This document shows positions 14,841 to 47,503 of a stretch of 55,818 nt of DNA, piece after piece. The notes beneath the pieces were generated by a model that made no database searches, had not been told where the DNA came from, and was given only the letters and a program-made list of their open reading frames with translations. Made by a program: the position numbers and the translations under genes. The DNA is taken from the NCBI RefSeq assembly GCF_018256155.1, contig NZ_JAERLY010000017.1:1-55818 (forward strand), written 5' to 3'. Each line of letters opens with the position of its first letter. The stretch's first letter is position 1. Source of the stretch: Gluconobacter sp. Dm-62. GTDB lineage: Bacteria; Pseudomonadota; Alphaproteobacteria; Acetobacterales; Acetobacteraceae.

Positions 14841-14932
14841 GGGACAGGCTCCACGACCGGGCGGGGCCGGTCGCTCTTCGATGTGCAGAGGGACAGGAAG
14901 AGGCCGCGCCCTGTGGGCGCGGCGCGTGCGGC
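14841..14932 (-). promoter_or_regulatory. Structured leader with GC hairpin
   Basis: GCCGCGCCC-TGT-GGGCGCGGC (14903-14923) is a perfect 9-bp stem with a 3-nt loop; ACCGG and CCGGT arms lie to its left near 14857-14871. It sits just upstream of the 73-residue protein gene, in the same place as the larger hairpin modules elsewhere. Confidence 0.5.
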
Positions 14933-15601
14933 CTAGAGCACGGCCCCCCATTGTGCAGCGCGGACGTTTTCGGTGAGGCTGCGGCCCGTGTCCTTCACAT
15001 AAGGCTTCCAGTCTTCCCCGAACAGTTCGCGGTAGGCGTCACATGCACCCTTGGCCATAACAGCGAGCGCGTAAGCCTTGGGGGCCTGCTGTGCAGCGAA
15101 ACGGACGGCCCGATCTACACGGTTTTCCCCGCCGTCGATGCCCTGCCGGTCCTCGTCGCGGCTTTCGTTGCTGAAAGAGTTCTGCTCGTCGCGGGCAATC
15201 TGGCGCTTGTTCTCATAGAAGTTGGCGGCACCATAGGCAGAGCGGATCAGGCCGTCCACGATGCGGCCAAGGTGCATTTCCATGGCCTTGAAATTGCGCT
15301 CACCCCGGAAATCGGTGACGACAAGCACGTCCTCAAGAAGCGTGTACTGTTCGCGGATCATGCTGACACCGGCCCCCGTCAGTTCGTCATAGTCGCCAGC
15401 CTCGAAACCGAAATGCTGAACAATGGCGGCAATCTTGTCGTCATTGGGGGCGAGACGGAGAACATCGGCAAGGGTTGGGGAGGCAATAGCCTTGGTGCGC
15501 TCGCGGGCTTCGTTGAAACGGCGGACGGCGGCGGGGCTGGCCTTGTTTGCAGCCTTGCGGTTCTGGGCCTTCGGTGCGATTGTGGTTGCTGCGTCGGACA
15601 T
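14933..15601 (-). CDS. Unrecognised protein under direct-repeat leader A
   Basis: A 222-residue soluble protein with a basic Ala/Lys-rich start (MSDAATTIAPKAQNRKAANK) and a helical body containing DYDELTGAGVSMIREQYTLLED and FKAMEMHLGRIVDGLIRSAYGA. GAGAAAGG precedes the ATG. I do not recognise a family. It has its own sigma70-like promoter and lies downstream of the same 527-bp leader that precedes ssb, so it is probably expressed together with ssb, for example early in the recipient. Confidence 0.8.
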   Translation of the reverse strand: MSDAATTIAPKAQNRKAANKASPAAVRRFNEARERTKAIASPTLADVLRLAPNDDKIAAIVQHFGFEAGDYDELTGAGVSMIREQYTLLEDVLVVTDFRGERNFKAMEMHLGRIVDGLIRSAYGAANFYENKRQIARDEQNSFSNESRDEDRQGIDGGENRVDRAVRFAAQQAPKAYALAVMAKGACDAYRELFGEDWKPYVKDTGRSLTENVRAAQWGAVL

Positions 15602-15749
15602 GAAACTAAGCCTTTCTCGTCTAGCGAAGTCCCGGCTTGGTGTTCCAGCACTAACCGGGGCGCTTTGTCTTGAGGGCCAATCCCTCTCGACAAGTAAAAG
15701 ATAGCCTTTTTGGCTTTTTCCTACAAGAGAAAAAACGCAGAAAACCGCC

Positions 15750-15778
15750 ATAAAACGCGCTTTATTTTTGCGTGACAA
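15750..15778 (-). promoter_or_regulatory. Sigma70-like promoter of the 14933-15601 gene
   Basis: On the minus strand TTGTCA (15778-15773), a 17-nt spacer, then TTTTAT (15755-15750). It lies between repeat A and the start codon at 15601. Confidence 0.6.
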
Positions 15779-15821
15779 GTAAAAAGATTTCTTGATTACT
15801 TCATGAATACCTGTCGTTTTC

Positions 15822-16349
15822 CTAGACCCATCCTGCCCGTGCGGCGAGCACACTGACGGCGACGAGAGTGGAAGGGAGGTGGCGTTTTCCTGAGCCCATC
15901 CTGCCACCGGCCAAGACGGTCGACGGGACAGGCCGTCAAGCCCGGAGCGTCCTGAGCAAGGGGGGCAGGTTTGCGGCTGATGCGGGGTCGCGTGCGGCCC
16001 TGCAGCAGACGCGGGCCTGACACCTGCCGCCGAGGGTCGCGCAGTGGCTTTACGGACTGGCACGGCGACTGTCAGACTGAACGCTGGATGCGAGGCCGCC
16101 TCCCTGTAACGTGCCTCCCCGGACGGTCCGCAGGACTGGCCGGGGAGGTTGAGGAGCCGTCTCACGAACAGATCACCCAGACCAGGACCGTCCGTCATCG
16201 GAAAAGAACGCGGGCAAGCCGTTACCCGGAAGGGCCGAGACCCGAGGGCCAGACGCCCGGTTGAGGGCGGCTGGACGTCGGGTCTCGGTGGAGCTTGGCG
16301 ACGCAGGAGCCTAGCGGAATAGAGCGCGCGAACCCTTCAGGGCCGCCCC
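15822..16349 (-). repeat. Long direct repeat, copy A (528 bp, structured leader)
   Basis: Nearly identical to 17801-18327 (by eye about 97%, with a one-base indel near 15960 and a few clustered substitutions). Nested arms include CCTCCCCGG (16114-16122) with CCGGGGAGG (16140-16148), enclosing GTCC-GCA-GGAC. A GGCAGGT/ACCTGCC pair is also present. The indel shifts the frame between copies, so it is not a gene. Its left edge is 220 bp before the 15601 start codon. Confidence 0.85.
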
Positions 16350-19174: not shown

Positions 19175-19200
19175 CCTTTTCTTTTTTCAGATGCTTTCCC

Positions 19201-19310
19201 GCAGGCGCAGACGGCTGGACGGGACAATGGCGCGCCCTCCAGGGCGCGGGCCGCGTGCGGCCGGACCATTGTGGCGGCCGGACGGCCTGTGGCTGTTTCT
19301 TTTCGTTTTT
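19201..19310 (-). promoter_or_regulatory. Structured leader module upstream of the 274-residue protein
   Basis: ACAATGG (19224-19230) pairs with CCATTGT (19266-19272) around GC hairpins (CGCGCCCT-CC-AGGGCGCG; GGCCGC-GT-GCGGCC). A T-rich stretch on the + strand follows (about 19292-19311). The module lies 27 bp before the start codon at 19174. Confidence 0.6.
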
Positions 19311-24827: not shown

Positions 24828-26855
24828 TCAGAACCCCATCGCCTCTCTCTGAGCCTGCCGATTGAAAGCCGTTCCCCGTTGGAGCGCGGGACGGCGCCTG
24901 AGATTGCGCCCCCAGCCGTCCCGCCGCGCCTGGAGCGGGATCTCGTCGATGAAGCAGCTCGGATTGGCCTGCTCGCCCCGACGAAACTCGCACCAGGACA
25001 CACTGACGCGCTGGCGGCCGCGGGTGAGTGCGACATAAGCCAGTCGGCGTTCTTCAGCCGGATCAATGTTCGTTCGCGACGGGAACAGCGTATCTTCCCA
25101 ACCGATCAGAAAGACATGCCCGAACTCCAGGCCCTTTGAGCCATGAATGGTCATCAGCTTGACCCGGCCGACACTCTCATCGCCGCTGCTTTCCGAGCCA
25201 AGGGCAGCGTGGTCGAACAGCTCTTCCACCGAGCTGAACTCGTTGGCGAGCGATAGAAGCTCGTGCAGGTTTTCCAGCGCCGTGCGGCCATCGTCCCCGG
25301 CTGCCTGGTGCATCGCGAGATACCCGCTCTCTTCTACAAGAACCCTCAGACGCTCTCCCAAACTGGGCTCGCCACTGCGGGCGCCTTTCAGGATCACGTC
25401 CAGAAAGCAGCGCAGCTTGTCAGCAGCCTTTCCGGTCCGTCCCTGCACCGTGCGCTCCGCTGCCTCGTACAGCGAGATCGCCTCCTCATCCGCGACCTGT
25501 TCGAATGTCGCCATGGCCTTGGCCCCGATCCCCCGGGCGGGCTGATTGACGATCCGACGGAAGGCCTCGTCAGACTGCCGCTCATACGGAAAACATGTCA
25601 GACGCAGGAAGGCCAGCGCGTCCTTGACCACGCCGCGCTGCCAGAAGGCGGTGTCATTGACCAGCTCGTAAGGGATCTTTGCGCGCAACAGAGACTCTTC
25701 CAGCAGCCGGGAGAGATGGTTGAAGCGATAGAGCACCGCCATGTCCTCGTAAGGCACGCCTTCAAGGGCGCGACGTCCGATCTCGGCGGCGATCCCGGAG
25801 GCCTCGTCCTGGCTGCCGGTGTGCCGCAGAATATCCACTGGCTCCCCATCTCCGGACGCGGTATACAGTGTTTTCTCCAGCCGGTTGGTGTCGTGAGAAA
25901 TCACTGCGTTGGCCGCTGACAGGATGTGACCGGTCGAACGGAAGTTCTGCTCCAGAGCAATCATGCGTCCGGTTGGAAACTCCTTGAGAAAACTTCGGAT
26001 AATCCTGACATTGGCCCCACGCCAGCCGTAAATCGACTGCGCATCGTCGCCCACAACGAAGAGCTCGTTGTGGTCTTTGGACAGGCATTTCAGCCAGAGA
26101 AACTGGAGCCGGTTGACGTCCTGGAACTCATCGGCGAGCACGCAGTCAAACCGGCCTGACCTGTCCTGTCTGTAGCGTTCGTCGCGGAGCATGGTCACGG
26201 TGGGCCATAGCAGCAGGTCTGCAAAATCCGCGCGATTGCTTTCGCGCAACATCGCCTGATAGGCTGGATAGAGCGCGGCCGCATCTCGCCAGACCATGAT
26301 GTCATCGCCTTCGGTGATGCCATCCGTCGCAATCCGTCCCTCTACCCAGGTCACGGCATCCGGGGGAAGCACCATGTTTTCCTTGAGCATGGCGATGCGC
26401 GAGCTGACGGACTTCACACGCTTGCGAAACGTCTCTCCGTCATCGGCATTCATGACGCCCGCTTCAATCGCCTTTTCCAGAAGCCTGCGCACGATCTTCG
26501 TGCTGTCTTCGCTGTCACAGACGTCGAAGCCCGGACGCAGCCCGGCAATGTCAGGATCGGTCCGCAGCTGACGGCGTCCGTGTGCATGGAAGGTGCCCAC
26601 CCAGTACGGGGCCTGCGCGATATTCAGGGCCGCTGCGATCCGCGTCTTCATCTCCCCGGCCGCCTTGTTGGTAAAGGTCACGGTCAGAATGCGATCGGGC
26701 AACATCCGGCGCTTGACGACACGGTCGACAATACCGGCCACAAGCGTCTTGGTCTTTCCGGTCCCGGCACCCGCCAGAACAACAACCGGTCCTGTCTGAC
26801 GCGCGGCGTCTGCCTGGAAGGGGGTCAATCCTGAGAGATGATTATCCACGACCAC
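24828..26855 (-). CDS. UvrD/PcrA-type superfamily 1 DNA helicase
   Basis: 675 residues with the SF1A motifs in order: GLTPFQADAA (Q motif), VVLAGAGTGKTKT (Walker A), TFTNKAAGEMKTRI, LADEFQDVNRLQFLW (Walker B), VGDDAQSIYGWRGA, LEQNFRSTGHIL, LMTIHGSKGLEF and YVALTRGRQ. It unwinds DNA 3' to 5' in repair or replication. I favour the GTG at 26855 (GGGAG seven bases upstream), which overlaps the previous gene by 14 bases; ATGs at 26876 and 26912 lack good sites. It is shorter than chromosomal UvrD, which has about 720 or more residues. Confidence 0.92.
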   Translation of the reverse strand: MVVDNHLSGLTPFQADAARQTGPVVVLAGAGTGKTKTLVAGIVDRVVKRRMLPDRILTVTFTNKAAGEMKTRIAAALNIAQAPYWVGTFHAHGRRQLRTDPDIAGLRPGFDVCDSEDSTKIVRRLLEKAIEAGVMNADDGETFRKRVKSVSSRIAMLKENMVLPPDAVTWVEGRIATDGITEGDDIMVWRDAAALYPAYQAMLRESNRADFADLLLWPTVTMLRDERYRQDRSGRFDCVLADEFQDVNRLQFLWLKCLSKDHNELFVVGDDAQSIYGWRGANVRIIRSFLKEFPTGRMIALEQNFRSTGHILSAANAVISHDTNRLEKTLYTASGDGEPVDILRHTGSQDEASGIAAEIGRRALEGVPYEDMAVLYRFNHLSRLLEESLLRAKIPYELVNDTAFWQRGVVKDALAFLRLTCFPYERQSDEAFRRIVNQPARGIGAKAMATFEQVADEEAISLYEAAERTVQGRTGKAADKLRCFLDVILKGARSGEPSLGERLRVLVEESGYLAMHQAAGDDGRTALENLHELLSLANEFSSVEELFDHAALGSESSGDESVGRVKLMTIHGSKGLEFGHVFLIGWEDTLFPSRTNIDPAEERRLAYVALTRGRQRVSVSWCEFRRGEQANPSCFIDEIPLQARRDGWGRNLRRRPALQRGTAFNRQAQREAMGF

Positions 26856-35309: not shown

Positions 35310-35395
35310 ATCGTAACCGGTTCGTCCAAGTTCAGAGGTGAGCCGTGAGGGGCTTCGGGAAAAAACACCTCACGGCCCGGTTTACCTTAAGTGAT

Positions 35396-35626
35396 TTACT
35401 CGGAGAGGCTCTTCAGTGCGGTGGCAACCGCCTGAAGGGTCTTCTTCGTTTTACGAAGGATCTTCGTAAACCACTTACGGTCCACCACGATCACGAAGAT
35501 CATGGTTTCCCCTTTCACTCTGACGACTGTGGGCAAAGCGACCCCCGACCCACATCCGGTTACGATTTTCGGGGGCCGCGACGTCTGAACCGTAACCTGA
35601 ACAGACGTTTCGTCACGCGGACTCAT
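35396..35626 (-). CDS. Small basic protein after the ParB-like gene
   Basis: 76 residues if it starts at 35626, or 35 if it starts at the internal ATG at 35503 (MIFVIVVDRKWFTKILRKTK, with GGGGAAA upstream). The C-terminal half is a strongly basic amphipathic helix. Real gene status is uncertain. Confidence 0.4.
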   Translation of the reverse strand: MSPRDETSVQVTVQTSRPPKIVTGCGSGVALPTVVRVKGETMIFVIVVDRKWFTKILRKTKKTLQAVATALKSLSE

Positions 35627-35706
35627 CAGGCGGCCCCGATCTCCTGTTGTGCCAGATCAGGCGTTCCACGCAAGTCTGTCGCGAAACGCTCTGTCATCAA
35701 GCGGCC

Positions 35707-37569
35707 TCAGACCCGAAGGATCTCCAGCCGCCCTCCCATGGCGGCCTGCATGGCCACCAGTTCCTGCGGCACCACGAGGTCCGGTTTTTCTGCTGGCTCA
35801 TCCTCCATGACGTCTGGCTCGCTAACCTCTTCCCCGCCTTCGTTGTCCATCACGTCTTCCAGACCCTCCGGATCAGCACACTCCAGGTCGTCTTCATCCT
35901 CGTCCTCCAGTCTGCTTTCAGCTGCAGCCCATTTCGCACGGCGAGACTGGTTTTTCCGAACCTCGTCCGCCCAGACGCCAGTCGCCTGCGCAAAGCCTGC
36001 GGCCTGCGGAACCCAATGCCCGTCTCCCACGGCGTTCAGCAAAGCGGCCCGCATCTCTTTGCCTGTGTTGAGTGGCGCAAGCCCATGTGCCTGAACCGCC
36101 TTGGTGATCCCGGGCTTGCTGTAGGTCTTCAGGAAGTCCTCATCGGCCATGCTCGGCATGTGGGTATCCGCGTCGAACAGACAGCCCAGCAGTTCCGCTG
36201 CCATGCCCGAACCGGAGTGCATGCTCACTTCGCAGTTCATGAAACCACCGAGGCTTTCCAGCGCGTGGCGGCGGATGAGCGCCTCATCACGCACCAGCTC
36301 CCCCTCCGGGAACAGCTCTTCCATAGCGGTTTTCACCGCGTTCTCATAAGGCGACCGGCCTGATGAACCGTAAATATGGACGTTATTGGCATTCAGTGCG
36401 AGCAGGAGGCCAGCCACCAGATCCCACGGATCGGCATCTTCACTTTTCGCTTCCAGCGCCTTCTTCAGCGCGAGACTCCGCACGGAGCCGATCATCTTCA
36501 GACCCGTGCCGGAGATGTCCGCGCGCTCTTTCTTTGGGGGTGGCGTCTGCTCCACCACACGCGCTTCAGAGCGAACTGTTTCTTCACCCGTGTAGCGAAA
36601 CTTCCGCTCTTCGATTTTCAGGGTACTCCGATTGAGCCAGTAGCCGACAACATCGGTCTCCTGCTCGCTCATCCAGTTCGTGACGAAGTTGTAGCCCTGA
36701 GGGCGCAGAGGCGATCCGTACTCGTCCGCCTCGATCGCAAGAGTGCCTTCAGGGCGATGCTCGGCAATCCAGTCTTCCTGCGCCGCCCGGAACGCCGTGG
36801 CATCCGTGACGTAGCGATTATCCTCACTGCCCTGCCCGAACAGATCTTCGGTCCAGACGACGCCATGCTTTTGCGCCAGCGCATCGTCAAACCGGGCATC
36901 CCGCGCATACCACTCGTCCTGACGCAGGTGCCAGGTGAAGTCACGCCAGTTCACGGTATCATCCGGATCTTCGGCGTTAAGACGGTACCCGGCCGGGTCC
37001 TCTCCCTCCTCCACGCTCTCGGCAAACATCTCAGCCCACGCAGCGGCCTGCTCCTCCAGAGACGACAGCGCCAGCGTCCGCCGCTCTTTTTGGTCCGGGC
37101 CACGGCCAATTTCGATGGCGTGCAGGATTGGCGGATGCAGCTTCGCGAGCAGGGTCAGTCCACGGAGATAGGCAGGCGTGATCATCAGCGCCATGCACAG
37201 CTGCTGATCCGTATAGCCAAGCTCTTCGCGCATCCGGGTTACGGCACGCCACTGGTCCGGCTCGGTCATGCCCTCACGGATCATGTTCTCACTGGCTGCT
37301 GCCAGATCCTCCAGACCATTATCGATCTTCGTCACATGGACCTGAATTTCCGTCAGACCCGCATAGATCGCCGCTTCTGTCCGTCGATGGCCCGCAATGA
37401 TCATCAGGCTGCCGTCACCGAGCTCACGCACGCGCGGCGGATGGACAAGCCCGACTGCACGGATATTCAGCGCAAGCTGGCGAATGCTCGCCTGGCCGGA
37501 CGTGGTCTGGCGGGGATTGTTCGGATTTGCGATCAGGATGTTGGGATCGACAAGGCGCAGTTCGTCCAT
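35707..37569 (-). CDS. ParB/Spo0J-domain protein of leading-region type
   Basis: 620 residues. The N-terminal ParB domain (about 5-110) has NPNNPRQ, IIAGHRRTEAAIYAGL (the nucleotide-binding GHRR box) and ENMIREGMTEPDQW; a helix-turn-helix-like part follows (LGYTDQQLCMALMITPAYLR). The long C-terminal region (about 200-620) is unlike partition ParB and ends in a very acidic tail (DEDEDDLECADPEGLEDVMD). Similar large ParB-like proteins occur in F-type leading regions. Partition here is served by another locus at 48 kb, so this one is probably a nuclease or CTP-switch factor of the establishment set. Confidence 0.85.
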   Translation of the reverse strand: MDELRLVDPNILIANPNNPRQTTSGQASIRQLALNIRAVGLVHPPRVRELGDGSLMIIAGHRRTEAAIYAGLTEIQVHVTKIDNGLEDLAAASENMIREGMTEPDQWRAVTRMREELGYTDQQLCMALMITPAYLRGLTLLAKLHPPILHAIEIGRGPDQKERRTLALSSLEEQAAAWAEMFAESVEEGEDPAGYRLNAEDPDDTVNWRDFTWHLRQDEWYARDARFDDALAQKHGVVWTEDLFGQGSEDNRYVTDATAFRAAQEDWIAEHRPEGTLAIEADEYGSPLRPQGYNFVTNWMSEQETDVVGYWLNRSTLKIEERKFRYTGEETVRSEARVVEQTPPPKKERADISGTGLKMIGSVRSLALKKALEAKSEDADPWDLVAGLLLALNANNVHIYGSSGRSPYENAVKTAMEELFPEGELVRDEALIRRHALESLGGFMNCEVSMHSGSGMAAELLGCLFDADTHMPSMADEDFLKTYSKPGITKAVQAHGLAPLNTGKEMRAALLNAVGDGHWVPQAAGFAQATGVWADEVRKNQSRRAKWAAAESRLEDEDEDDLECADPEGLEDVMDNEGGEEVSEPDVMEDEPAEKPDLVVPQELVAMQAAMGGRLEILRV

Positions 37570-37622
37570 GATGGGCTCCAGTGATGTCGTAAGGGTGTCG
37601 AAAAGGTATCGTGGGGGAGACG

Positions 37623-38048
37623 TCAGGCGGTCAGGCTGTGCGCGAGATGGGAGACCACACGCTCGATATGCTCGACCTCAAGCTGCCGTGTTTCCAGCGT
37701 CAGCGTGGCCGTGCCGTAAGACCCGTCTTCATCGTTGTCGTAATCGGCCTGCACGCGCCGGATAACGGTTTCGACGCAGTGCCAGACCACAAGGTCAAAG
37801 CTGTTCGGAAACAGAGGGGCAATCGTCTGGTCAGGTCCAAGCGCTGCAACGGCCTTCTCAAGGGACAGGTCTTCGAACAGATCCGGACTGTCGTCCGCTG
37901 TCACATGAAGCGTTGTCCACCAGCCTTCCTTGGCCTCGTACTCAACTTTGACCGCCTTCACGCCATGCGCCTGCATCGCGTCAAAGATCAGCGTCAGGTT
38001 TGCTCTGAGCGCCACTTCGGCCGCGGGTTGTCCTGTCGGGTCTGACAC
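37623..38048 (-). CDS. DUF6878-like protein (GTG start)
   Basis: 141 residues starting GTG at 38048 with AGGAG six bases upstream. The stretch LTLIFDAMQAHGVKAVKVEY recalls DUF6878 proteins found beside similar plasmid genes; the assignment is tentative. A 15-bp-stem hairpin module lies directly upstream (38099-38152). Confidence 0.65.
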   Translation of the reverse strand: MSDPTGQPAAEVALRANLTLIFDAMQAHGVKAVKVEYEAKEGWWTTLHVTADDSPDLFEDLSLEKAVAALGPDQTIAPLFPNSFDLVVWHCVETVIRRVQADYDNDEDGSYGTATLTLETRQLEVEHIERVVSHLAHSLTA

Positions 38049-38098
38049 GCCTGTCTCCTTTTTTCTGTCGTGATGATCTCGGCGCGGGCACGGGGCGT

Positions 38099-38210
38099 GG
38101 CTTCGCGCAAGGCCGCGCGTCAGCGCGCCCGGCCTGAGCCTTGCGCGAAGCCGCGACCTGTGGCGGCTCCCTCTCTCTTTTCCGTTTGTTTTCCTGCCCC
38201 CTTTTCTTCT
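38099..38210 (-). promoter_or_regulatory. Structured leader module with 15-bp stem (pair to 39475)
   Basis: GGCTTCGCGCAAGGC (38099-38113) pairs perfectly with 38138-38152. The interior CGCGCGTCAGCGCGCCCGGC is the same as in the module at 39475 except for one base, while the outer stem differs and still pairs. A pyrimidine tract on the + strand follows to about 38212. Confidence 0.75.
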
Positions 38211-38237
38211 TCCTTGGGCAGGCAAGGCGGTGGCGGT

Positions 38238-38546
38238 TCAGTCGTAAAAAGGCAGCGTCTCGTCGATCGACCCGTCCCGATCGAAGTGGATGTAATGGCA
38301 GTTCTGCTCCCGCGCCCGCACCATCAGGGCAGCCAGTTCGGGAGACACATCCTGCGGGACGTCCTCCGCCTCAGTGGGCACATAGATCATCCAGCCATAA
38401 GGCCCACCAAGGCAACTTCGGCCTGCTGTGCCCCCGCTGCTGAGATAAAGCTCGCACGCATCGCGCTCTGCGAGCGGAAGATGCCCGGTACTGAGATCCA
38501 GGTGCCGGCAGACGGGGCCTGCGGACGTGGGCAGGACTTCGCTCAT
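38238..38546 (-). CDS. DUF5983-like protein
   Basis: 102 residues. LDLSTGHLPLAERDACELYL, GWMIYVPTEAEDVPQDVSPE and REQNCHYIHFDRDGSIDETL match the layout of DUF5983, a small family on proteobacterial plasmids with no known function. Its start overlaps the stop of the WHGPY paralogue upstream (ATGA). Confidence 0.75.
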   Translation of the reverse strand: MSEVLPTSAGPVCRHLDLSTGHLPLAERDACELYLSSGGTAGRSCLGGPYGWMIYVPTEAEDVPQDVSPELAALMVRAREQNCHYIHFDRDGSIDETLPFYD

Positions 38547-38884
38547 GCCCGGGCCTCCGGCCGGACAATGAACGACGTCAGACAACTGCCCCCTGTCCAG
38601 CGATCCAAGGTCAGCATCATCTCGACGCCCTCAAGAGTCTGGGCAATAGTCCCATTCCGGCGGCCCCGTTGCAGATCCTCCGGGGTAATTACGGGCGGCG
38701 CGTTGCGGTCCACGAAATCGGCTTCCGCGCAGGTCGCATCCTTGTATGGCCCGTGCCAGTCATTCCCGTTGACGGGATAGCTGTCCACGGTGCGCAGAAG
38801 AGCCTCACCATTCGGATAGGTGAAAATCTCCACGTTCACACCGCACAGAACCTTGGAAATGATGGCCTTGTCCGTCCGGCTCAT
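38543..38884 (-). CDS. WHGPY-type small protein, paralogue 2
   Basis: 113 residues starting MSRTDKAIISKVLCGVNVEI. WHGPYKDATCAEADFVDRNA, then TPEDLQRGRRNGTIAQTLEG and RWTGGSCLTSFIV line up with the protein at 33233-33607. It overlaps its neighbours by four bases on both sides, so it is part of a three-gene operon (38238-39423). Confidence 0.75.
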   Translation of the reverse strand: MSRTDKAIISKVLCGVNVEIFTYPNGEALLRTVDSYPVNGNDWHGPYKDATCAEADFVDRNAPPVITPEDLQRGRRNGTIAQTLEGVEMMLTLDRWTGGSCLTSFIVRPEARA

Positions 38885-39423
38885 GCCGCGCACTCCACAA
38901 ATGGGGTCAGACCTTTCATGATGGAGTGGCGCTCGTGACATGGTCCATAAACTGTCGCCCGGTTATAGACAGGAGCGTCATCCAGATTGGAGTATGCCAG
39001 AAAGATGGCTGCATCCTTTGGGTCACGCAGCAGGTTCAGCCAGGACCACACCGGGGTTTCACCTGTCATCTCCGGGGCCTTGATAGCGGACAGCGCGGCC
39101 ACGGCATCCCGCAAAACAGTCCGGCACTTGCGAATATAGGTTTCTGCCTGCGTCTCACTGGCACCGGAGAAGCGCATTCCGCCGCCCTCACAAGAGGCAG
39201 CGTACTGCACCACCTGACGCATGATCTCCCAGTTCTGTCCCGCCCCAATCAGGGACCAGCTTCTCGCGCGCAGCGAGCCCCGCCCCTCATAGACATTGTT
39301 ATCGCCACCCAGTTCCATCAGCAGGTACTGATCGGCATGAAAGCTGCTATCCGCGACATAAGGGCGCAGGGTCGCTGCCGGAAGTCGCACGGCGGCGAGG
39401 TCATAGACGATACGATAGGACAT
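38881..39423 (-). CDS. Unrecognised 180-residue protein
   Basis: Starts MSYRIVYDLAAVRLPAATLR. Globular, mixed alpha/beta (SLIGAGQNWEIMRQVVQYAA, YIRKCRTVLRDAVAALSAIK). It begins a three-gene operon and has a hairpin module just upstream (39475-39528). No family is recognised. Confidence 0.75.
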   Translation of the reverse strand: MSYRIVYDLAAVRLPAATLRPYVADSSFHADQYLLMELGGDNNVYEGRGSLRARSWSLIGAGQNWEIMRQVVQYAASCEGGGMRFSGASETQAETYIRKCRTVLRDAVAALSAIKAPEMTGETPVWSWLNLLRDPKDAAIFLAYSNLDDAPVYNRATVYGPCHERHSIMKGLTPFVECAA

Positions 39424-39474
39424 GCTCTCTTCCTCTGATCTCTCTTTCAACCTCTCCGCGGATGCAGGGACTGT

Positions 39475-39528
39475 CCGGTGTGGCAAGGCCGCGCGCCAGC
39501 GCGCCCGGCCTGAGCCTTGCCGCACCGG
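39475..39528 (-). promoter_or_regulatory. Structured leader module (pair to 38099)
   Basis: CCGGTGTGGCAAGGC (39475-39489) pairs with GCCTTGCCGCACCGG (39514-39528), 15 pairs including one G-T. The interior matches the 38099 module. It lies 52 bp upstream of the 39423 start codon and 30 bp from the end of the methylase-helicase gene, whose 3' end supplies the pyrimidine-rich flank. Confidence 0.75.
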
Positions 39529-39557
39529 GCGGGCCATGCCCGCCCCTTCTCCTCTCC

Positions 39558-42500
39558 CTATGCTGCCGTCTCTGCTTCTTCGTCTTCTTCCCCATTGTCG
39601 TTGACGCTCAGGCTTTCCATCGCGGCCAGAGCCTCGGAAGCCTCGGCCTCCCGCCGCGCTGTATCCTCGGCCAGATCCGCCTCTAGAGCCGCCATTTCCT
39701 CCTCCTTCTCCTCCAGGAGTGCGGCCTCGCGGAACGGCATCCCGTCACGGGCGCGATAGCCGGGCAGTTTACGCTCCGTCTCGGCCAGCAGCCGCTGCGC
39801 ATCCGCAAGCTCGCTATCGAAGCGCAGCAGGGTGTTCTCGATGCGGGCGATGAACCCGAGCGGGGCGGTGTCGTGATCAAAATCGATCCCGATCATCCGG
39901 TCCTCGGCCACGATGGCGATGGTCGCCTCCCATTCGGTCTCACCCATGAAGGTCGAACCCCAGGTCTCACACACCAGCTCGAACCCGCCGATCTCGCCGA
40001 GTTTCCACCGGCCTTTCTGCTCGGCACGCTTGGCGGTGCGCGCCTGACCCATCAGCCACCTGCCGGCATCCTGCCGCTCGGTCAGCACATCCGACTTGCG
40101 CACAAGCTGGAACGCCTCCCCCCGTGTCGACTGGCGTTTCGCGATATCCGCCCGGATCTTCGGAATAACGGCTTCGGCCACCCTCTGATCACGCTCGGCC
40201 CGCTCGATCGCGCGACGCACGTTGAACTGGTCGTCGTAATGGGCGGCCTTGAGACGACGCAGACGGGCCAGCTCCGCTTCCAGTCCCGCCTTTTTCATCA
40301 GGCGCTCGTCGCCCGAAGCGAGTGCCTTCGCCATGGCAAACTGGTTCGCACTCTCGCCGATATCCTCCAGACGGCGGATCGACCGGTCTCCCGACATGGC
40401 CAGACACAGGAAGCGCTGCTTGCGCTCCAGAAGCTGCCAGTTCGTGGCATCCACCGAGCCTTTCAGGGCGTAGGCGTAAATCTGGATGACCGGGTTCTGG
40501 TTGCCCTGGCGTTCGATCCGTCCCTCACGCTGGATAATGTCGGCCACCAGCCAGGGCACATCCAGATGGTGCAGGGCAATCAGACGCTGCTGTGCGTTCA
40601 CGCCCGTGCCCATTGTCGCACTCGAGCCGATCAGGATGCGTTTGCGCCCGGAATTGAGATCCCGGAACAGTCCCTGCTTGGCCGCACTCTTTTTGTAGTG
40701 CTGCATGAAGGCGATCTGCTCGCGCGGCACACCCATCCGCATCAGCTCGTCGCGGATCCACAGATAGGCCGAGAAGCCCCGTTTCTCCAGCGCCGCTTCC
40801 GTGCCCAGATCCGAGAAGATCATCTGCACGGCCCCGGGCAGGTCATACGGCTTGCCGGTGTCGGGATCGGTGTAGCGGTTCTCGCTCGTCGCCTTCCAGA
40901 TGTCGAAGACCCTCGCGATCATGACGTTCAGCTTGTTGCTGGTGTCATTGTCCTCCGAAGGTCGGACAAAGCGCAGATCAATCGCGGCATGACGCGCATC
41001 GTTGATCACGGACAGGATGATGTCCTGCCCTTTTTCAGGCTTGCCCTTGCGCTCCTCGATCACCTTGATCCGCGCTTCCAGCTCCTTCTGGTAATCGCGG
41101 AAGGCGGGTCCGCTGTCTGCGACCACGATCTGTCGGCTGCCCGTGGCGATTTCAGGCAGCTTCACGTACTGGCGCAGGTCGTCCTGCTGCACGACGTCCG
41201 CAAAATGCCGGTACATGGCCATCAGATCGGCCACGTTCACGAACTCCGCAAACCGCGTCACAGGCTTGTACAGCCCGCTCGGCTGAAGCTCGAGTTCCGT
41301 GCGGGTCTCCCCGAAATTGGCAGCCCAGGCGTCGAACTCATGCAGGCCACGCTCGATCAGGGCGTCGATCTGCTGGAAGCGCTGCACATTGTACATCTCG
41401 CCCAGGGTGTTCGTAATCGGCGAGCCCGAGGCCATGATTAGCTCGCGACCGGGGTTGAGACGGCTGAGATAGCGGGCCTTGACGTACAGGTCCCAGGCAC
41501 GACCGCTGCCATTCGGATCGACCCCTTTGAGGCTGGACTGGTTCGTACCGAAGCTGAGCTTGCGGAACTGCTGCGCCTCGTCCACGAGGATCTGGTCGAT
41601 GCCGATCTCGCCGAGATGAACCAGATCGTCCTTGCGGCTGGCCAGCCCGTCCAGCTTCGCTTTCATTCCCTCCTTCATGCGCTCGATGCGCTTGCGGGAG
41701 ATGCGGTCGTCGGCGTCGATCTCGCACAGCAGGCTTTCGTAAGACGCGATCTGCGCCTCGATCATCGCCTGCTCGAACTTGGTCTCGACCGGAATGAACT
41801 TGAAGGCATCATGCGTGATGATGATCGCATCCCACTGACCCGTGGCCGCACGGGCGAGAAAGCGCTGGCGCTTCGCCTTCACAAAGTTCGTCTCGTCCGC
41901 CACCAGGATCTTCGCGGTCGGGTAGAGCATCAGGAACTCGCGGGCCATCTGCGCCAGACAGTGTCCCGGCACCACAACCATGGCCTTCGAGATCAGGCCA
42001 AGACGGCGCTGCTCCATGATCGCCGCGCACATCGAGAAGGTTTTTCCCGATCCCACGGCATGCGCCATGTAAGTGTTTCCCGTGGCGATGATGCGCCAGA
42101 CCACCCGCTTCTGGTGCGCGCGCAGCTGGATCGTGGTGCTGGCCCCGGGCAACTGCAGATGCGAGCCGTCAAAGGCGCGGGGGACGAGGTTGTTGTAGGT
42201 GTCGTTATACAGCCGCACCAGACGCTCGGCGCGCTCTGGATCCTGCCACACCCAGGCCTGGAAGGACGTCTTGATGGCGGCGAGCTTTTCCTTGGCGGCC
42301 TCGGTCTCCTGGGCATTCAGCTGCCGGTGCTCGCCGTTCTCGTCGCGCCAGGTGTCCCAGATCTGCGGAATGGCCTGATTGAGCGCATCCTCGATCAGTT
42401 CCCCTGCGGGACGGCGTTCGGTGCCCCAGACGGACGTCGCTTCAGCCTTGCCCCGGAACGGTCCCTTGTCCAACGTCCAGGACGCCACCTCCTTGGTGTG

Positions 42501-44699
42501 CCACACGCCGGCCTCGACCCCGATCACCTCGGCGATGAAGCCCTCGATGTCGGCGGTTGGGATCCACGGCGCGCCCAGACGGGCTGTAATGTCACTCGGC
42601 CGCAGATCCTCGGGCTGGGCCTCTTCCAGCGCGGCCACGGTGCGGGCGAAGCGGGGATCAGTCTCAGCGGCCTTGCGGGCCTCCGCCAGCTTCGTGCGCA
42701 CCGCGCCTGACAGCGCCTCGTCGGCTGGCACCCAGACATCGCGTCCGGGCTGGCTGCGTCCGGCATCGAGGTAGATGGCACTGCCCAGCTCGGCGATGAC
42801 CTCGTCCTCGGACCGCCCCAGCAGTTCGGCAATGCGCGGGATCTCCACGACACCCGTCTCATGCAGGCAGACCGCAAGCGCGTCATGGGCGCTGTGCACC
42901 TCCGGCTCCAGCGTTGCCTGGATCACACGCTCGGAGAACAGCGGCCCCTGTGTGCCGACCTGCCGGTCCTCGTCGTACTCCTCAATCGAGCTGACCAGCC
43001 AGACGTCCGGATCGTCGTAGAAGGGCTGGAGGTTCGGACGCCGCTGCGTGATGCTCTCGTCCCCGGTCCTGGGATCAATGCGCGTGCTGGTCAGCGTCAG
43101 GTTGATCGGCCCGAACTGTCGCACAAAGGACTGATAGGCGCGCTTGAGGTCCGCCTGGAGCGCGCTGTAAGGCAGGTTCTCCACCTGGGCGCGCAGGACC
43201 GAACGGGCGGCATCACGGACCGGGATCAGGCCTTCGATGATACGCGCGTGCTTTTGGAAAATACCGTCCTTCTGCTCGCCTTTCTTGACCTTCACCGGCA
43301 CCGACTGGCCGTCAATGATCTGGTGCAGGGCCCCCTTCTCGATCAAGTAGCTGCCTTCCTTGAGGCTCGCCCCCTCCCCTGCCGTGCCGACATCCGCACG
43401 TCGGCTTTCCCGCAGCGCCTCGACGTCGAGCGTCTGCGGCACCGGGAAGCGTGCCAGCGCGGCGAGACGGAAGAGCGCGCTCGGCAGGGCGTCGTCGAGC
43501 ATCAGCATCGGGTTCGCCGCGCAGGTGTATTCCGGCCCGAACTGTCCGCTCGTCCAGCCGTGCCGACCGAGCACCTGCTGACCGTTCTCCGCAAAATAGC
43601 GGTTGATGCTGAGCGGTCCCTCCCCCTCGTCGGTGTCGGGCAGGTCCGCAACGTCCAGCCAGGCGGTGTCGCCCGGGCTGTCTCCGATCTCGCGACGGCG
43701 CAGGACCAGCACGTCCACGACCACGTCAGTCCCAGCATCATCGCGCATCGCGCCAGCCGGCAAGCGGACCGCCCCGACCAGGTCCGCCGTTTCGAACAGG
43801 TGCCGGCGTGCAGTGGCGTCGCGCTTGTCCATCGTCCAGCGTGACGTCACGAACAGACCCATGGCACCGGGGCGCAGGCGGGAGACGGAGCGTGCGATGA
43901 AGTAGTCATGCAGGGACAGGCCAAGCCGTCCCAGTTCGTCCGTGCCGCGCACCGTGCGGTTGCTGAACGGCGGGTTGCCGATGGCGAGGTCGAACTGCTC
44001 GGCAATCTTCGCCGTCGTGAAGTCTTCAGACCGCACCCACTGGTTCGGAAACAGCTTGCGGGCGATGCGGGCCGTCAGAGGGTCGTTCTCGATCGCCGTC
44101 CAGGCCGTCTTCGGGGCAAGTTTCTCTGGGATCGCGCCCATGAACAGACCCGTGCCACAGCCCGGCTCCAGCGCACGTCCGCCGCGGAACCCCATCTGCG
44201 CCACCAGATCCCACAGCGCGTGCACGATCAGTTCCGGCGTGTAATGGGCGTACTGCGTGGCCCGCGCCAGTCCGGCCCGCTCCTGCTGGCTCGTCAGCGT
44301 CTCAAGCTGCACCCCGATCTCTTCCCAGCCCTGACGGAAGGCTTCGCCCGGACGGGGGAACAGGCTGTTGGCCAGCTCCCCGGCTCCAAATCCCGTAAAC
44401 TTCGCCAGCAAAGCCTGCTCGGACGGCGTTGCATTGCGCCCCTCGGTCTCCAGTTCGGTCAGAAGACGGATGGCGGCAAGGTTGTCCCGTGCGCGCGCTT
44501 TCCAGCCCTGGGACAGGTCGCGTGTGCCACAGAGACGGAAGTCAATCTTTGGCGCGATAACCGGAGTGCTGGCGGCCTGCGCAACGACCTTTGCTGCCTC
44601 TTCAAGCGCCTTGTCTCCAGGCAGTTCACCCCAGAAAAGATTGGCGTTCGCGCCGCCGAGGGCGGATGTGTCGAAGAAGCTAAGCTGTGCCTTGCTCAT
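39558..44699 (-). CDS. Giant DNA methylase-helicase fusion
   Basis: 1713 residues. The N-terminal part holds an N6-adenine methyltransferase fold: SAM motif ALEPGCGTGLFMGAIPE (about 178-194) and catalytic NPPFSNR (about 240). A superfamily 2 helicase follows: MAHAVGSGKTFSM (about 876-888), ILVDEAQQFRKLSFG (about 1036-1050), WLVADIIQREGRIERQGNQN (about 1388-1407). The tail is a long acidic coiled coil. Such proteins are carried by large plasmids and phages and are thought to protect entering DNA or remodel it; modification of incoming DNA against restriction is the likeliest role. It is the largest gene here and is oriented for use from the transferred strand. Confidence 0.9.
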   Translation of the reverse strand: MSKAQLSFFDTSALGGANANLFWGELPGDKALEEAAKVVAQAASTPVIAPKIDFRLCGTRDLSQGWKARARDNLAAIRLLTELETEGRNATPSEQALLAKFTGFGAGELANSLFPRPGEAFRQGWEEIGVQLETLTSQQERAGLARATQYAHYTPELIVHALWDLVAQMGFRGGRALEPGCGTGLFMGAIPEKLAPKTAWTAIENDPLTARIARKLFPNQWVRSEDFTTAKIAEQFDLAIGNPPFSNRTVRGTDELGRLGLSLHDYFIARSVSRLRPGAMGLFVTSRWTMDKRDATARRHLFETADLVGAVRLPAGAMRDDAGTDVVVDVLVLRRREIGDSPGDTAWLDVADLPDTDEGEGPLSINRYFAENGQQVLGRHGWTSGQFGPEYTCAANPMLMLDDALPSALFRLAALARFPVPQTLDVEALRESRRADVGTAGEGASLKEGSYLIEKGALHQIIDGQSVPVKVKKGEQKDGIFQKHARIIEGLIPVRDAARSVLRAQVENLPYSALQADLKRAYQSFVRQFGPINLTLTSTRIDPRTGDESITQRRPNLQPFYDDPDVWLVSSIEEYDEDRQVGTQGPLFSERVIQATLEPEVHSAHDALAVCLHETGVVEIPRIAELLGRSEDEVIAELGSAIYLDAGRSQPGRDVWVPADEALSGAVRTKLAEARKAAETDPRFARTVAALEEAQPEDLRPSDITARLGAPWIPTADIEGFIAEVIGVEAGVWHTKEVASWTLDKGPFRGKAEATSVWGTERRPAGELIEDALNQAIPQIWDTWRDENGEHRQLNAQETEAAKEKLAAIKTSFQAWVWQDPERAERLVRLYNDTYNNLVPRAFDGSHLQLPGASTTIQLRAHQKRVVWRIIATGNTYMAHAVGSGKTFSMCAAIMEQRRLGLISKAMVVVPGHCLAQMAREFLMLYPTAKILVADETNFVKAKRQRFLARAATGQWDAIIITHDAFKFIPVETKFEQAMIEAQIASYESLLCEIDADDRISRKRIERMKEGMKAKLDGLASRKDDLVHLGEIGIDQILVDEAQQFRKLSFGTNQSSLKGVDPNGSGRAWDLYVKARYLSRLNPGRELIMASGSPITNTLGEMYNVQRFQQIDALIERGLHEFDAWAANFGETRTELELQPSGLYKPVTRFAEFVNVADLMAMYRHFADVVQQDDLRQYVKLPEIATGSRQIVVADSGPAFRDYQKELEARIKVIEERKGKPEKGQDIILSVINDARHAAIDLRFVRPSEDNDTSNKLNVMIARVFDIWKATSENRYTDPDTGKPYDLPGAVQMIFSDLGTEAALEKRGFSAYLWIRDELMRMGVPREQIAFMQHYKKSAAKQGLFRDLNSGRKRILIGSSATMGTGVNAQQRLIALHHLDVPWLVADIIQREGRIERQGNQNPVIQIYAYALKGSVDATNWQLLERKQRFLCLAMSGDRSIRRLEDIGESANQFAMAKALASGDERLMKKAGLEAELARLRRLKAAHYDDQFNVRRAIERAERDQRVAEAVIPKIRADIAKRQSTRGEAFQLVRKSDVLTERQDAGRWLMGQARTAKRAEQKGRWKLGEIGGFELVCETWGSTFMGETEWEATIAIVAEDRMIGIDFDHDTAPLGFIARIENTLLRFDSELADAQRLLAETERKLPGYRARDGMPFREAALLEEKEEEMAALEADLAEDTARREAEASEALAAMESLSVNDNGEEDEEAETAA

Positions 44700-44821
44700 G
44701 GGAATACTCCGGACAAGCGGCCGCGCCCGGTGCTGCGCTCGGCAGACCGGGTGGCCAGAAAAACTGAATGGTGGAACTGCGCGAGGGGCCGCGCCCGGCT
44801 CAGGCGTGCGGCATCAGGGGA

Positions 44822-45085
44822 TCAGAGCGGTCCGAACCGAAGGCTGATCTGCTCGCGTTCATTGTCGGAAAGGCGCGCGAGAGCCTCGCGATGGTATTCG
44901 GAACCGCAGCGCGCCTTCTGTGACACCCGCCACCAGGCGTGCTGGTCCGAACAGGTGACGCCTCGGATCTGGGTGTCCATGCTTTCGGGACCGCAGCCTT
45001 CGAGGATGGTCCAGCCTTCCTGATGGGCCTGAACCAGACTGAACTGCGACTGTGTATCTGGGGACGTAAGGGCCAAGCTCGGCAT
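44822..45085 (-). CDS. Small unrecognised protein before the methylase-helicase
   Basis: 87 residues starting MPSLALTSPDTQSQFSLVQA with AGGAG upstream. Acidic, with a helical end (YHREALARLSDNEREQISLR) and two cysteines (VTCSDQH, ARCGSEY). A hairpin module lies upstream. No family is recognised. Confidence 0.65.
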   Translation of the reverse strand: MPSLALTSPDTQSQFSLVQAHQEGWTILEGCGPESMDTQIRGVTCSDQHAWWRVSQKARCGSEYHREALARLSDNEREQISLRFGPL

Positions 45086-45135
45086 CGTCGTCTTTCTCCT
45101 TTCCTGACCCTCTCCGGCAACCGCGGCGTCGTGCT

Positions 45136-45292
45136 GGGGGGCAAGGGCGACGCGCCAGCGTCGGGACCGCCCGGCCCGCAGCGCCAGCGAGGACACGGAC
45201 GGACCCACCCCTTGCCGCACAGGGCGATCCCGTGGTGCCCCCCTTCTTCCCTTCCCTCTTTTTCTTTTTTCTTTTTTCTTTTGCTTTCGGCT
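45136..45292 (-). promoter_or_regulatory. Structured leader module with long pyrimidine tract
   Basis: GGCAAGGG (45140-45147) pairs with CCCTTGCC (45209-45216). Inside, GACGC-GCCA-GCGTC forms a hairpin (about 45149-45162). The + strand tract 45238-45292 is almost pure pyrimidine. Core sequence is shared with 35088-35152. It lies 51 bp upstream of the 87-residue protein gene; the rightward MucR-type gene begins on its other side. Confidence 0.7.
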
Positions 45293-45428
45293 CTTCTGCA
45301 GGTCGGAAAAAAACCATGCGGCAAGTGTGAAGACGCTGTTAACCGGAGTAATGTATTGTCGTGGCTGACTTGCAGTCACCGTTCACAGAAACGATTTACA
45401 GCTCACCATCATTACACTGAGGGATTTC

Positions 45429-45926
45429 ATGACTGACCTGACACCCGCCACAGAGCCCCCTCACTCTGACCTGCGTTCCCTGACGGCCGAAATCGTGGCC
45501 GCCTATCTCTCAAGAAACGATGTCGCGCCCGATGGGCTCCCGGGCCTGATCCGTTCCGTCCACACGGCCCTGACCGTTCCGGCGGTCTCCGAGGCTGCGG
45601 CCGAAGAGGCGCCAGTTCCCGTGGTCAATCCGAAGAAGTCGGTTTTCCCGGACTACATCATCTGTCTGGAAGACGGGAAAAAGCTGAAGATGCTCCGTCG
45701 TCATCTCAAAACGGCGTACAACATGACGCCTGATGAATACCGCGCCCGCTGGGGTCTGCCCCCGGAGTATCCGATGGTCGCTCCCGGCTATTCCGCACAG
45801 CGCGCAGCTCTTGCCCGGGAAATCGGCCTGGGCTCCAGAACCCGCGCTTCTGCGCCTCAGGAAGAAGACCTCCCTCCGGTAAAGAAGCTCCCCGAAAAAC
45901 GGCGGGGCCGTCCGGCCCGCGCCTGA
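45429..45926 (+). CDS. Ros/MucR family transcriptional regulator
   Basis: 165 residues. The zinc-finger region (FPDYIICLEDGKKLKMLRRH, then LKTAYNMTPDEYRARWGLPP, about 78-115) is the family signature; the tail RRGRPARA is also typical. Ros/MucR proteins are alphaproteobacterial repressors acting on AT-rich promoters, including plasmid transfer genes. It is one of only two rightward genes in the leading block and could silence the AT-rich promoters here once the plasmid is double-stranded. Its own upstream region (45318-45428) is AT-rich. Confidence 0.92.
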   Translation: MTDLTPATEPPHSDLRSLTAEIVAAYLSRNDVAPDGLPGLIRSVHTALTVPAVSEAAAEEAPVPVVNPKKSVFPDYIICLEDGKKLKMLRRHLKTAYNMTPDEYRARWGLPPEYPMVAPGYSAQRAALAREIGLGSRTRASAPQEEDLPPVKKLPEKRRGRPARA

Positions 45927-45928
45927 AA

Positions 45929-46900
45929 CTAGAGGGGCCCTCCTCCGTTACCGAAGGCACCGGCCGGGAGAGTCCAGTTTTCTGTCAGAACCGTCTGTAA
46001 CGGGCGGTCTGACAGGCAGGCTGCGACCAGATCGGGCCGCGACCGGGCCGCTTCATAAACCGTCCCTTCGGACGACAGCTGCGCGAGCCCCCTGTCACGT
46101 TTGATCGTGCAGCCGAAGTCTTTTTCATATCCAACCAGTTTCGCAAACCGGTTCGCATCCATCCATTTCAGGGTGGCGAACTGGTCTGCATTGCCGAAGA
46201 TGCAGAACGCGCAGGACAGGCGCGAAAATCCAACCTGATATGGATAGGCTGGCATGACGCGCCAGCGCTCCAGGATCGCCCAGACCTCTGCTTCGGACCA
46301 CTGATGTACCGGCCTCCAGTGATCGACATGGCGACGACGACGCGTCCCGTTTCTCGTGTCGGTACGGTGAGGCTCAAAGGCCGCATATCGAGCCCGTGCG
46401 GGACTCTCTTCAGCACGCTCGCCTGTCACGACCAGGGTACGGCGGTTGAGGAACCGGTCCTGTCCGCGAACGGCACGATCGGCTACGTCGACTTTGAGGC
46501 TTGCCGAACACCAGCGCACGGAGAGGCTGGCCGAGACCTGGGGAAAGCGCAGCCGGGTTCCGTTCTGGCCCTCCCCGCCGGCGACGACGCGCCCCTCCGG
46601 GGTCTCGAAGACCACGGGCGCGGTCGGCATATCGTGGCGCAGCATCTCGCGCTCGAAGCCACCCTCTCGCCAGGACCGATAGAGTGGCAGTCCGAAGTCG
46701 CGAGCCAGGGCTTCGACATACGGAGCAGTGGAGGGCCAGTCCATGAAGGATCCCCCCTCCCCGTCCACATCGTGGTGCCACAACTCGATGCGTTCGGCCG
46801 GAGCACCGGCTTCCAGCAGGGCGAGCAGACAGGCCGTGCCATCCTTGCCTCCCGACACTGCGACAATGATGCTGTCATAGGACGCGAGATCCGGGCTCAT
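45929..46900 (-). CDS. PAPS-reductase/DndC-like PP-loop protein
   Basis: 323 residues. The PP-loop VAVSGGKDGTACLLALLEAG (about 14-33) binds ATP; RWCSASLKVDV (about 143-153) and SCAFCIFGN (about 248-256) provide cysteines of a possible iron-sulfur cluster. The fold is shared by PAPS reductase and DndC, the DNA-phosphorothioation sulfurtransferase. Plasmid and phage members have no settled role. No other sulfate-assimilation gene is nearby, so modification of DNA or tRNA, or anti-defence, seems likelier than sulfur metabolism. Its start overlaps the zinc-finger gene (ATGA). Confidence 0.82.
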   Translation of the reverse strand: MSPDLASYDSIIVAVSGGKDGTACLLALLEAGAPAERIELWHHDVDGEGGSFMDWPSTAPYVEALARDFGLPLYRSWREGGFEREMLRHDMPTAPVVFETPEGRVVAGGEGQNGTRLRFPQVSASLSVRWCSASLKVDVADRAVRGQDRFLNRRTLVVTGERAEESPARARYAAFEPHRTDTRNGTRRRRHVDHWRPVHQWSEAEVWAILERWRVMPAYPYQVGFSRLSCAFCIFGNADQFATLKWMDANRFAKLVGYEKDFGCTIKRDRGLAQLSSEGTVYEAARSRPDLVAACLSDRPLQTVLTENWTLPAGAFGNGGGPL

Positions 46901-47274
46901 GATGTCCACCGACTGACCGGGGCGCCTGTCCGCACAGAGCGGCACATCAGGGCGTGGGCGATCGGGCGCTCCCGCAGCAGCAGCGGCTTTTCGTGGCGAC
47001 CGTCCCAGGTCAGTCCCTCACAACGTGTCAGCAGCTCCATCTGGACCGCCGCTTCGTCGCGACAGGCGCACACACGCTCATTGCCACCTGATCTGCGGCG
47101 GCACGGCTCATCCGCAGGTCCACCGCAGCCCGTGCAGGCAATCGTGAGTGCGGGATCGCCGTCCTCCCAGTGCATGTTACAGCGGCGGCAGGTTGTAGGC
47201 TCCTGCGTGTCGGTCCAGCGCATCGGAGGCCGGCCACGGGGGGTTGGGATATAGGGAAACTGGTAGCGTCGCAT
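46897..47274 (-). CDS. Zinc-finger protein coupled to the PAPS-reductase-like gene
   Basis: 125 residues with two cysteine clusters: CRRCNMHW (about 29-36) and CTGCGGPADEPCRRRSGG, then CACRDEA (about 47-75). The second resembles the CxxC...G-x-PC zinc-binding unit of small phage and plasmid proteins. It is first in a two-gene unit and has a hairpin module upstream, so it is probably also a leading-region gene. Confidence 0.7.
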   Translation of the reverse strand: MRRYQFPYIPTPRGRPPMRWTDTQEPTTCRRCNMHWEDGDPALTIACTGCGGPADEPCRRRSGGNERVCACRDEAAVQMELLTRCEGLTWDGRHEKPLLLRERPIAHALMCRSVRTGAPVSRWTS

Positions 47275-47317
47275 GATGCTCGATCCATCTCTGATTCTTC
47301 AAACATCCTTGCGACGA

Positions 47318-47503
47318 CCTTTCGGGCGACCGGGGTGCAACAGTGCCGCGCAGCGGCAGGATCGGCGTCATCCGGACCCACGCGCAGGCGGCGCAGCCGG
47401 CGAGCATGGGGAGGACGGACGGCGACCCACCTGTTGCGGCGCGGGCGACCGAAAGGCAGCGCCTTATTCTCCCTTCTTTTCTACAGTTCTCCCTTCCTCC
47501 TCG
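47318..47503 (-). promoter_or_regulatory. Structured leader module at the right end of the leading block
   Basis: CCTTTCGG (47318-47325) pairs with CCGAAAGG (47449-47456); after an internal loop GCAACAG (47337-47343) pairs with CTGTTGC (47431-47437). Directly inside is the hairpin TGCCGC-GCA-GCGGCA (47344-47358). A pyrimidine-rich + strand stretch follows (47464-47503). It precedes the zinc-finger gene. Confidence 0.7.

Follow-up and report, generated by a model that had tools for sequence, protein, structure and literature searches.

The modules and their setting

The stretch of DNA analysed here (the window) comprises positions 1 to 55,818 of contig NZ_JAERLY010000017.1 of Gluconobacter sp. 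Dm-62. It represents a Gluconobacter-type plasmid, of which 24.8-48.0 kb can be aligned with pGOX1 of G. oxydans 621H (93.5% identity, 97% coverage). Besides a relaxase, the window carries a block of mostly minus-strand, leading-type genes and eight GC-rich, gene-free DNA modules, each directly upstream of a minus-strand gene (Table 1). The modules, which stand shortly before genes that probably enter a new cell first, are the subject of this analysis.

Folding of the reported sites revealed a shared plan. A long outer stem of free sequence leads to a near-invariant step, GCAA in the 5′ arm against TTGC in the 3′ arm. Inside this step lie three covarying pairs (GGG:CCC, AGG:CCT, GAG:CTC, ACG:CGT or CAG:CTG), followed by a GC-rich mini-hairpin. 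The second arm is variable: short in type A (GGAGCGNAGCGAC), long in type B (GGATC..GACC with GAGGAC) and compact in type C. The first-pass annotation of the window, made from the sequence alone, had listed ten sites as one family of cloverleaf-like folds. The mini-hairpin with its short loop that it described is real, and its GAGGAC/CCCACC segment is found in the larger type B modules, of which alone it is a mark. The term cloverleaf is a loose one, the core being a two-arm junction atop a long stem. The motif AGCG-N-AGCGA presumably resembles the CS-6 box of the rolling-circle ssoA. An origin from mobile repeats of the miniature inverted-repeat type was considered unlikely, because copies within a plasmid have only the core letters in common and keep the same orientation and the same distance.

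Table 1. Positions of the modules and associated features in the window (R1 and R2, covariance models)
Feature	Position	Strand	Evidence and remarks
MobF/TrwC-type relaxase	6720..9923	-	Pfam TrwC 1.8e-44; closest solved structure TrwC 1omh
Predicted origin of transfer (oriT)	11063..11091	+	Perfect 7-bp hairpin then ATTTGTGTATGG; nick predicted 11087/11088
Module, divergent core ACAATGG:CCATTGT	19199..19292	+	R2 E 1.1e-5; before minus-strand gene 18350-19174; pGOX1 orthologue 1404-1476
Block of mostly minus-strand leading-type genes	24828..47274	-	UvrD, DUF3991/Toprim, endonuclease, DUF3085, LPD30, ParB_N, helicase-methylase, PAPS reductase
Module, type A	30731..30817	+	R2 E 2.2e-10; fold
hpE, small hairpin, module 33032 to next start codon	32997..33018	-	Family wobbles point to mRNA strand
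Module, type B, perfect 22-bp outer stem	33032..33148	+	Fold; R2 match
Module	35070..35178	+	R2 E 7.4e-9; fold
Module, type C	38081..38170	+	R2 E 7.7e-6
Module, type C	39458..39543	+	R2 E 2.7e-6
Module, type B	45116..45239	+	R2 E 7.5e-7; fold
Module, type B, large	47311..47462	+	Fold; R2 E 0.79 only; copies in L002, L060

Covariation and membership

Two covariance models were built, R1 from ten sequences and R2 from 94 matches in 39 sources. Covariation among aligned homologues, on which the idea of a family had been made to depend, was found: two-sided changes occur at 23 of the 25 modelled pairs in the R2 alignment (94 sequences, 87 distinct). The covariation score of this alignment, which had been fitted to the structure, was 0.402 vs 0.115 in shuffles and at most 0.089 with the pairing partners slid. 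In two MAFFT alignments (A1 and A2, 9 and 10 sequences), compensatory changes were observed at 16/26 and 13/18 predicted pairs, although the members had been chosen by a stem scan requiring paired arms and the pairing is partly by construction. A strand-neutral scan for GCAA..TTGC stems gave 62 matches in 864 kb against a shuffle mean of 3.2. The 94 source matches of R2, minus three opposite-strand re-matches and plus seven sites from the stem scan or folding, yielded 98 modules, 60 of them non-redundant (including L057 8959, which resembles a chance match and was retained). These 60 fold far below their dinucleotide shuffles, with a mean z of -4.8 and 88% below -2.

Eight of the ten sites first listed belong to this family (19201, 30731, 33032, 35088, 38099, 39475, 45136 and 47318, after their reported starts). 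The first seven match R2 on the + strand at E ≤ 1.1e-5 with filters off; the training set included the window sites 30740, 33039, 35082, 39471 and 45129, which leaves 19212-19284 and 38095-38156 as the independent matches. Site 47318 is a weak match (E 0.79), but it has sequence and layout in common with the type B copies in loci L002 and L060. The membership of 28737 (hairpin 28720-28790) is doubtful. It is kept in pGOX1 and holds AGCGTAGCGACG, which is like the arm of type A, but it is matched by neither R1 nor R2 and folds slightly better on the opposite strand. Site 14841 is not a member: it is more stable than its own shuffles (z -3.2), yet it consists of two simple hairpins that lack the GCAA:TTGC core, and no covariance model matches it.

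Occurrence in other genomes and plasmids

A covariance-model search of acetic acid bacterial plasmids had been proposed at the outset. With R1, further copies were found in plasmids of Komagataeibacter, Acetobacter and Roseomonas and in the genome of the window itself. R2 matches (E ≤ 0.001) are present in 28/200 Acetobacteraceae genomes and in 19/102 genera. In a class-wide sample of 385 genomes, including a few Acetobacteraceae, the only R2 match was in the window's own genome. At E ≤ 0.01, R1 matched 20/200 Acetobacteraceae genomes and 2/385 of the class-wide sample, namely the own genome and one of another family (E 0.002). Negatives from searches of more than 40 genomes are soft, as the filters were stricter there and the candidates scored numbered 13-25 per genome. 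The match in the other alphaproteobacterial family (L042 4-78) is a type A-like module at contig ends, for which R2 gave no match at 0.001. Within the window's own genome, R2 matches lie on the contig of the window (C8) and on C3 and C17, with weaker ones (E 0.005) on C26 and C28.

When 11 complete plasmid records were searched with R2, 56 rows were obtained; two were weak opposite-strand re-matches, which leaves 54 sites. The plasmids had been selected for carrying a relative of the helicase-methylase gene, and R2 had been trained on many of their sites. In 10/11 plasmids the sites lie on a single strand, and they sit bunched in a single region of each among co-oriented leading-type genes. 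In Roseomonas mucosa HV2, for example, they occupy 65.8-91.2 kb of 184 kb, and in R. gilardii 217-241 kb of 265 kb. The possibility that such modules would be equally frequent outside leading regions and unrelated to gene starts does not agree with this bunching or with their place before gene starts. A Sphingosinicella plasmid (L046), its leading region included, contained no family member. The proposal of a large, divergent and covarying family in leading-type regions is therewith supported.

No description of the family was found in the open-licence PMC papers searched. No Rfam family reached its gathering score in the window, and at E ≤ 1 just two matches were obtained in 28000-47600 (mir-3622 and Six3os1_5), neither of them relevant.

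Position relative to genes

In ten annotated loci, 52/53 sites precede a gene that is coded opposite to the folded strand and is thus read from it. The distance from the model edge to the start codon has a median of 53 nt and is 33-63 nt in 36/52 sites, while on the far side of the module the median gap is 88 nt (range -28 to 692). These counts ignore three small hypothetical coding sequences that overlap modules, and five of the 54 plasmid sites lie outside the loci covered. The flanks of the folded strand are pyrimidine-rich (C+T 66% near the 5′ side and 74% near the 3′ side), which tends to keep this strand open next to the stem.

The folding strand is the template strand

A stem that is kept in mRNA tolerates G·U pairs, which are read as A·C on the other strand, whereas a stem kept on the template shows the reverse. 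On the mRNA-complementary strand, the outer stems of 33 non-redundant modules from the strand-neutral scan contain 44 G·T vs 8 A·C (41:5 without three doubtful stems). Orientation was taken from the gene direction in annotated loci and from the model strand in other genomes. Composition alone predicts about 62:38 according to a pair shuffle, from which 44:8 differs at p 5e-4; the loci oriented by annotation give 28:5 (p 0.006). With DNA energies, the mRNA-complementary strand is the stabler one in 59/60 modules, including 26/26 from annotated loci, and 85% of the modules surpass the mean strand bias of their own dinucleotide shuffles. The folding strand is hence the strand complementary to the mRNA, i.e. 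the template.

The loops are of a DNA type as well. GNA triloops cap 27/56 mini-hairpins (GCA 15, GGA 5, GTA 4, GAA 3) and GTCA caps five; neither GNRA nor TTCG was encountered among the 56 loops. GNA and GNNA loops on G-C stems are described as heat- and nuclease-resistant DNA mini-hairpins (PMC4686876).

A long hairpin with several T·G wobbles on the template strand also precedes ssb in three Roseomonas plasmids (L005 34640-34865, L047 35690-35916 and L049 9375-9600). An hpE-like hairpin adjoins the start codon there, in the same grammar. These hairpins are unmatched by the models and enter none of the counts.

A second hairpin, hpE, lies between module and start codon in 32/71 non-redundant flanks (30 shuffle runs: mean 11.2, largest 16). 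Its stems vary in sequence yet pair (GTCTTC/GAAGAC, GGTGTTCC/GGAACACC, GGAATCC/GGATTCC, TCAGGT/ACCTGA). Counted on the strand that folds in the module, hpE has 16 A·C wobbles vs 3 G·T, which corresponds to G·U in the mRNA (p 2e-4 vs the shuffled ratio, with some of the events common by descent). The module thus looks to be kept as template-strand DNA and hpE as RNA, so that the transcript likely starts at or near the module base.

Origin of transfer and transferred strand

The predicted oriT is separated from the end of the relaxase operon by about 0.9 kb, and its 16-base core has one exact match in the whole genome. Its layout resembles that of the oriT of R388, the plasmid of TrwC. A Roseomonas plasmid shows a different hairpin followed by ATTGGTGTATGG, adjoining the mobF operon and likewise on the strand opposite that of the leading genes. 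Among 100 Acetobacteraceae genomes the core occurs in two, the own genome and one in which a perfect hairpin was not found. An earlier candidate near 10204-10230 was dropped, as it was not found in other loci. From the predicted oriT, the + strand is the probable transferred strand (T-strand) and template of the leading genes, which is also the arrangement of Frpo in F. The initial suggestion that the modules fold on the transferred strand would agree with this assignment.

Other features of the window

RepA and a ParA/VirC1-like ATPase are also encoded in the window, and the leading-type genes at 24.8-47.3 kb include a DNA/RNA endonuclease and a helicase-methylase of 1713 aa. Comparable blocks of related plasmids hold ssb, zincin-like metallopeptidases, an antirestriction protein or methyltransferases. 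A tRNA-Pyl call at 25197 was taken as false because it falls within the UvrD gene. The interval from the last module to the ParA gene (47540-47915) holds direct repeats with inverted copies (GATAGCCGCTACCC and variants) that resemble the iterons of replication or partition. Another structure, which does not belong to the family, lies upstream of module 35088 (35300-35576): its two 21-nt arms show 90% complementarity and are separated by 235 nt that include additional short palindromes. An identical 35-nt hairpin is found at 16114-16148 and 18092-18126, each time at the start of a minus-strand open reading frame.

Proposed mechanism and alternatives

On balance, the sequence evidence slightly favours the modules being single-stranded-DNA transcription initiation sites of the T-strand, which would work in the manner of Frpo with an architecture of their own and without a -10 box. 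The plasmid would enter the recipient single-stranded, and each module of the T-strand would fold into a long stem capped by the very stable GNA mini-hairpin. RNA synthesis would then begin on the unpaired template beside the stem base, before the second strand is made, and the transcript would read the leading gene about 50 nt beyond the module. Since the element would be silent in the duplex form, the leading genes would be expressed in a short burst. In favour of this reading are the strand, position and location of the modules, the change of strand at the stem base, and the nearby genes of the blocks described above (ssb, metallopeptidases, antirestriction protein, methyltransferases).

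Several observations weigh against this. At the usual spacing the modules lack the -10 box reconstituted by Frpo, the best TATAAT match having a mean of 1.96/6 vs 2.23 in shuffles (52 modules), and the kinship with Frpo that had been suspected was in this respect not borne out. Single-sided changes between related modules, counted in orthologue comparisons, give a weaker bias of only 25:12 (p 0.047). The energy bias is partly one of composition, as dinucleotide shuffles reach -1.9 vs -5.9 kcal/mol in the modules, with 81% vs 98% of the sequences. The assignment of the T-strand rests on an oriT predicted in two plasmids, and the 91 kb analysed of pGOX1 do not contain the oriT motif. Finally, at the exceptional site L044 33383-33473 the genes that follow are on the other strand.

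The absent -10 box suggests either recognition of the shape or the action of another enzyme. The TTG of the 3′ arm, a possible -35 element, is nearly invariant in the 94-sequence alignment; in the -10 box test the invariance of CAA/TTG is by construction, and the unanchored figures are those of the 94-sequence covariation analysis. A lax -35 element, 'ttGnnn', has been reported for G. oxydans (PMC5756330), and the TTG of the modules would fit it. More tentatively, and with the odds somewhat against it, an alphaproteobacterial code for transcription from the single strand may be envisaged. Each leading operon would carry a T-strand hairpin of its own that is conserved in shape and diverged in sequence, read by its shape and possibly by a plasmid-encoded factor. 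The code would then consist of the GNA mini-hairpin, the GCAA:TTGC step and the open, pyrimidine-rich base, and not of a -10 box. Divergence of the stems would prevent recombination among the many copies, and second-strand synthesis would silence all of them together.

The main rival is that the modules are priming sites resembling single-strand initiation (ssi) sites or single-strand origins (sso). The T-strand hairpins would recruit primase or RNA polymerase for synthesis of the second DNA strand, not for mRNA. The strand, loop and region evidence fits this equally well, and a candidate primase could be the DUF3991/Toprim protein encoded at 27536-28672; annotated DUF3991/Toprim genes are present in most related leading regions. 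However, priming needs no fixed distance to a start codon, yet most sites keep one, and the mRNA-type hairpin hpE directly downstream fits a transcript leader. Priming is judged unlikely, though priming and mRNA initiation may both hold.

Less probable again are protein-bound or transcription-blocking leaders, in which a protein of the plasmid or host would bind the folds, or the folds would halt read-through towards the establishment genes in the donor. EGeRS1-B of pLS20 is such a structured, GC-rich leader before establishment genes; it has no constitutive promoter and acts as a block to read-through (PMC8708921). A block of this kind acts in mRNA or duplex DNA, whereas the selection observed here is on the template strand, and intrinsic terminator patterns are not in excess in 29000-47600 (11 vs 12.7 in shuffles).

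An antisense RNA, in which a folded transcript of the + strand would control the opposite gene, is improbable to a further degree. The G·U pairs of the + strand would fit such an RNA equally well, and antisense transcripts are common in G. oxydans, with 313 reported (PMC5756330). The loops, however, are of the DNA type described above, and just two sigma-70-like patterns were found in 29000-47600, which is not above shuffles. A structured leader in the mRNA of the minus-strand genes, i.e. a riboregulator, would suit the place of the sites directly before start codons and the resemblance of hpE to an mRNA hairpin, but it is the least credible of all, being contradicted by the wobble and energy data: within the modules themselves, the mRNA strand folds more weakly and carries wobbles of the wrong kind.

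Comparison with known systems

Like the Frpo and ssi elements of F and ColIb-P9 (PMC9849209, PMC11541004), the modules are non-coding, lie in the leading region upstream of its genes, occur several times per plasmid and fold on the template strand of the leading genes. Frpo reconstitutes -35 and -10 boxes, and its two copies in F are 92% identical (PMC9849209, PMC11541004). The modules differ in the missing -10 box, the junction with a GNA mini-hairpin, the stems of free sequence, the many copies per plasmid and the occurrence in Acetobacteraceae. Two published surveys found more such promoters by BLAST with known Frpo or by a -35/-10 consensus (PMC11541004, PMC12826799), an approach that would miss the module family.

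The EGeRS1 elements of the pLS20 family are likewise GC-rich, structured sequences repeated before establishment operons (PMC8708921). They are much longer and their transferred strand is the non-template strand, for which reason their authors think single-stranded-DNA promoters highly unlikely (PMC8708921). In contrast, the folding strand of the modules is the template, and the predicted oriT would make the transferred strand the template too. The case can nevertheless serve as a warning that structured leaders may block read-through instead.

The promoters of the N4 virion RNA polymerase are also template-strand DNA hairpins with a 3-nt loop and a sheared G:A pair, and free stem bases are tolerated while pairing is kept (PMC4496689). 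They may be regarded as a precedent for shape recognition. An N4 promoter is a single short hairpin that serves a phage polymerase, whereas the module fold is much larger, and no phage-type RNA polymerase was detected among the 40 window proteins scanned with Pfam (224 open reading frames listed). A conserved structure near genes for single-stranded-DNA-binding and antirestriction proteins is further known as STAXI (Rfam RF01728), for which a single-stranded DNA form was considered possible (PMC2864571). Unlike the modules, STAXI consists of tandem pseudoknots, often with UUCG loops, in Enterobacteriales (PMC2864571), and its Rfam model has no match in the window.

Single-strand initiation, the nearest function, is already known, and what is new is the architecture of the modules and the host group. 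Detailed knowledge of single-strand promoters comes from enterobacterial plasmids of the F and ColIb types. If the proposed reading is true, early expression from the incoming strand would be a wider strategy that makes use of a different, shape-based signal. The covariance model would then offer a handle on the leading regions, and on as yet unknown anti-defence genes, of Acetobacteraceae plasmids, including those of industrial strains.

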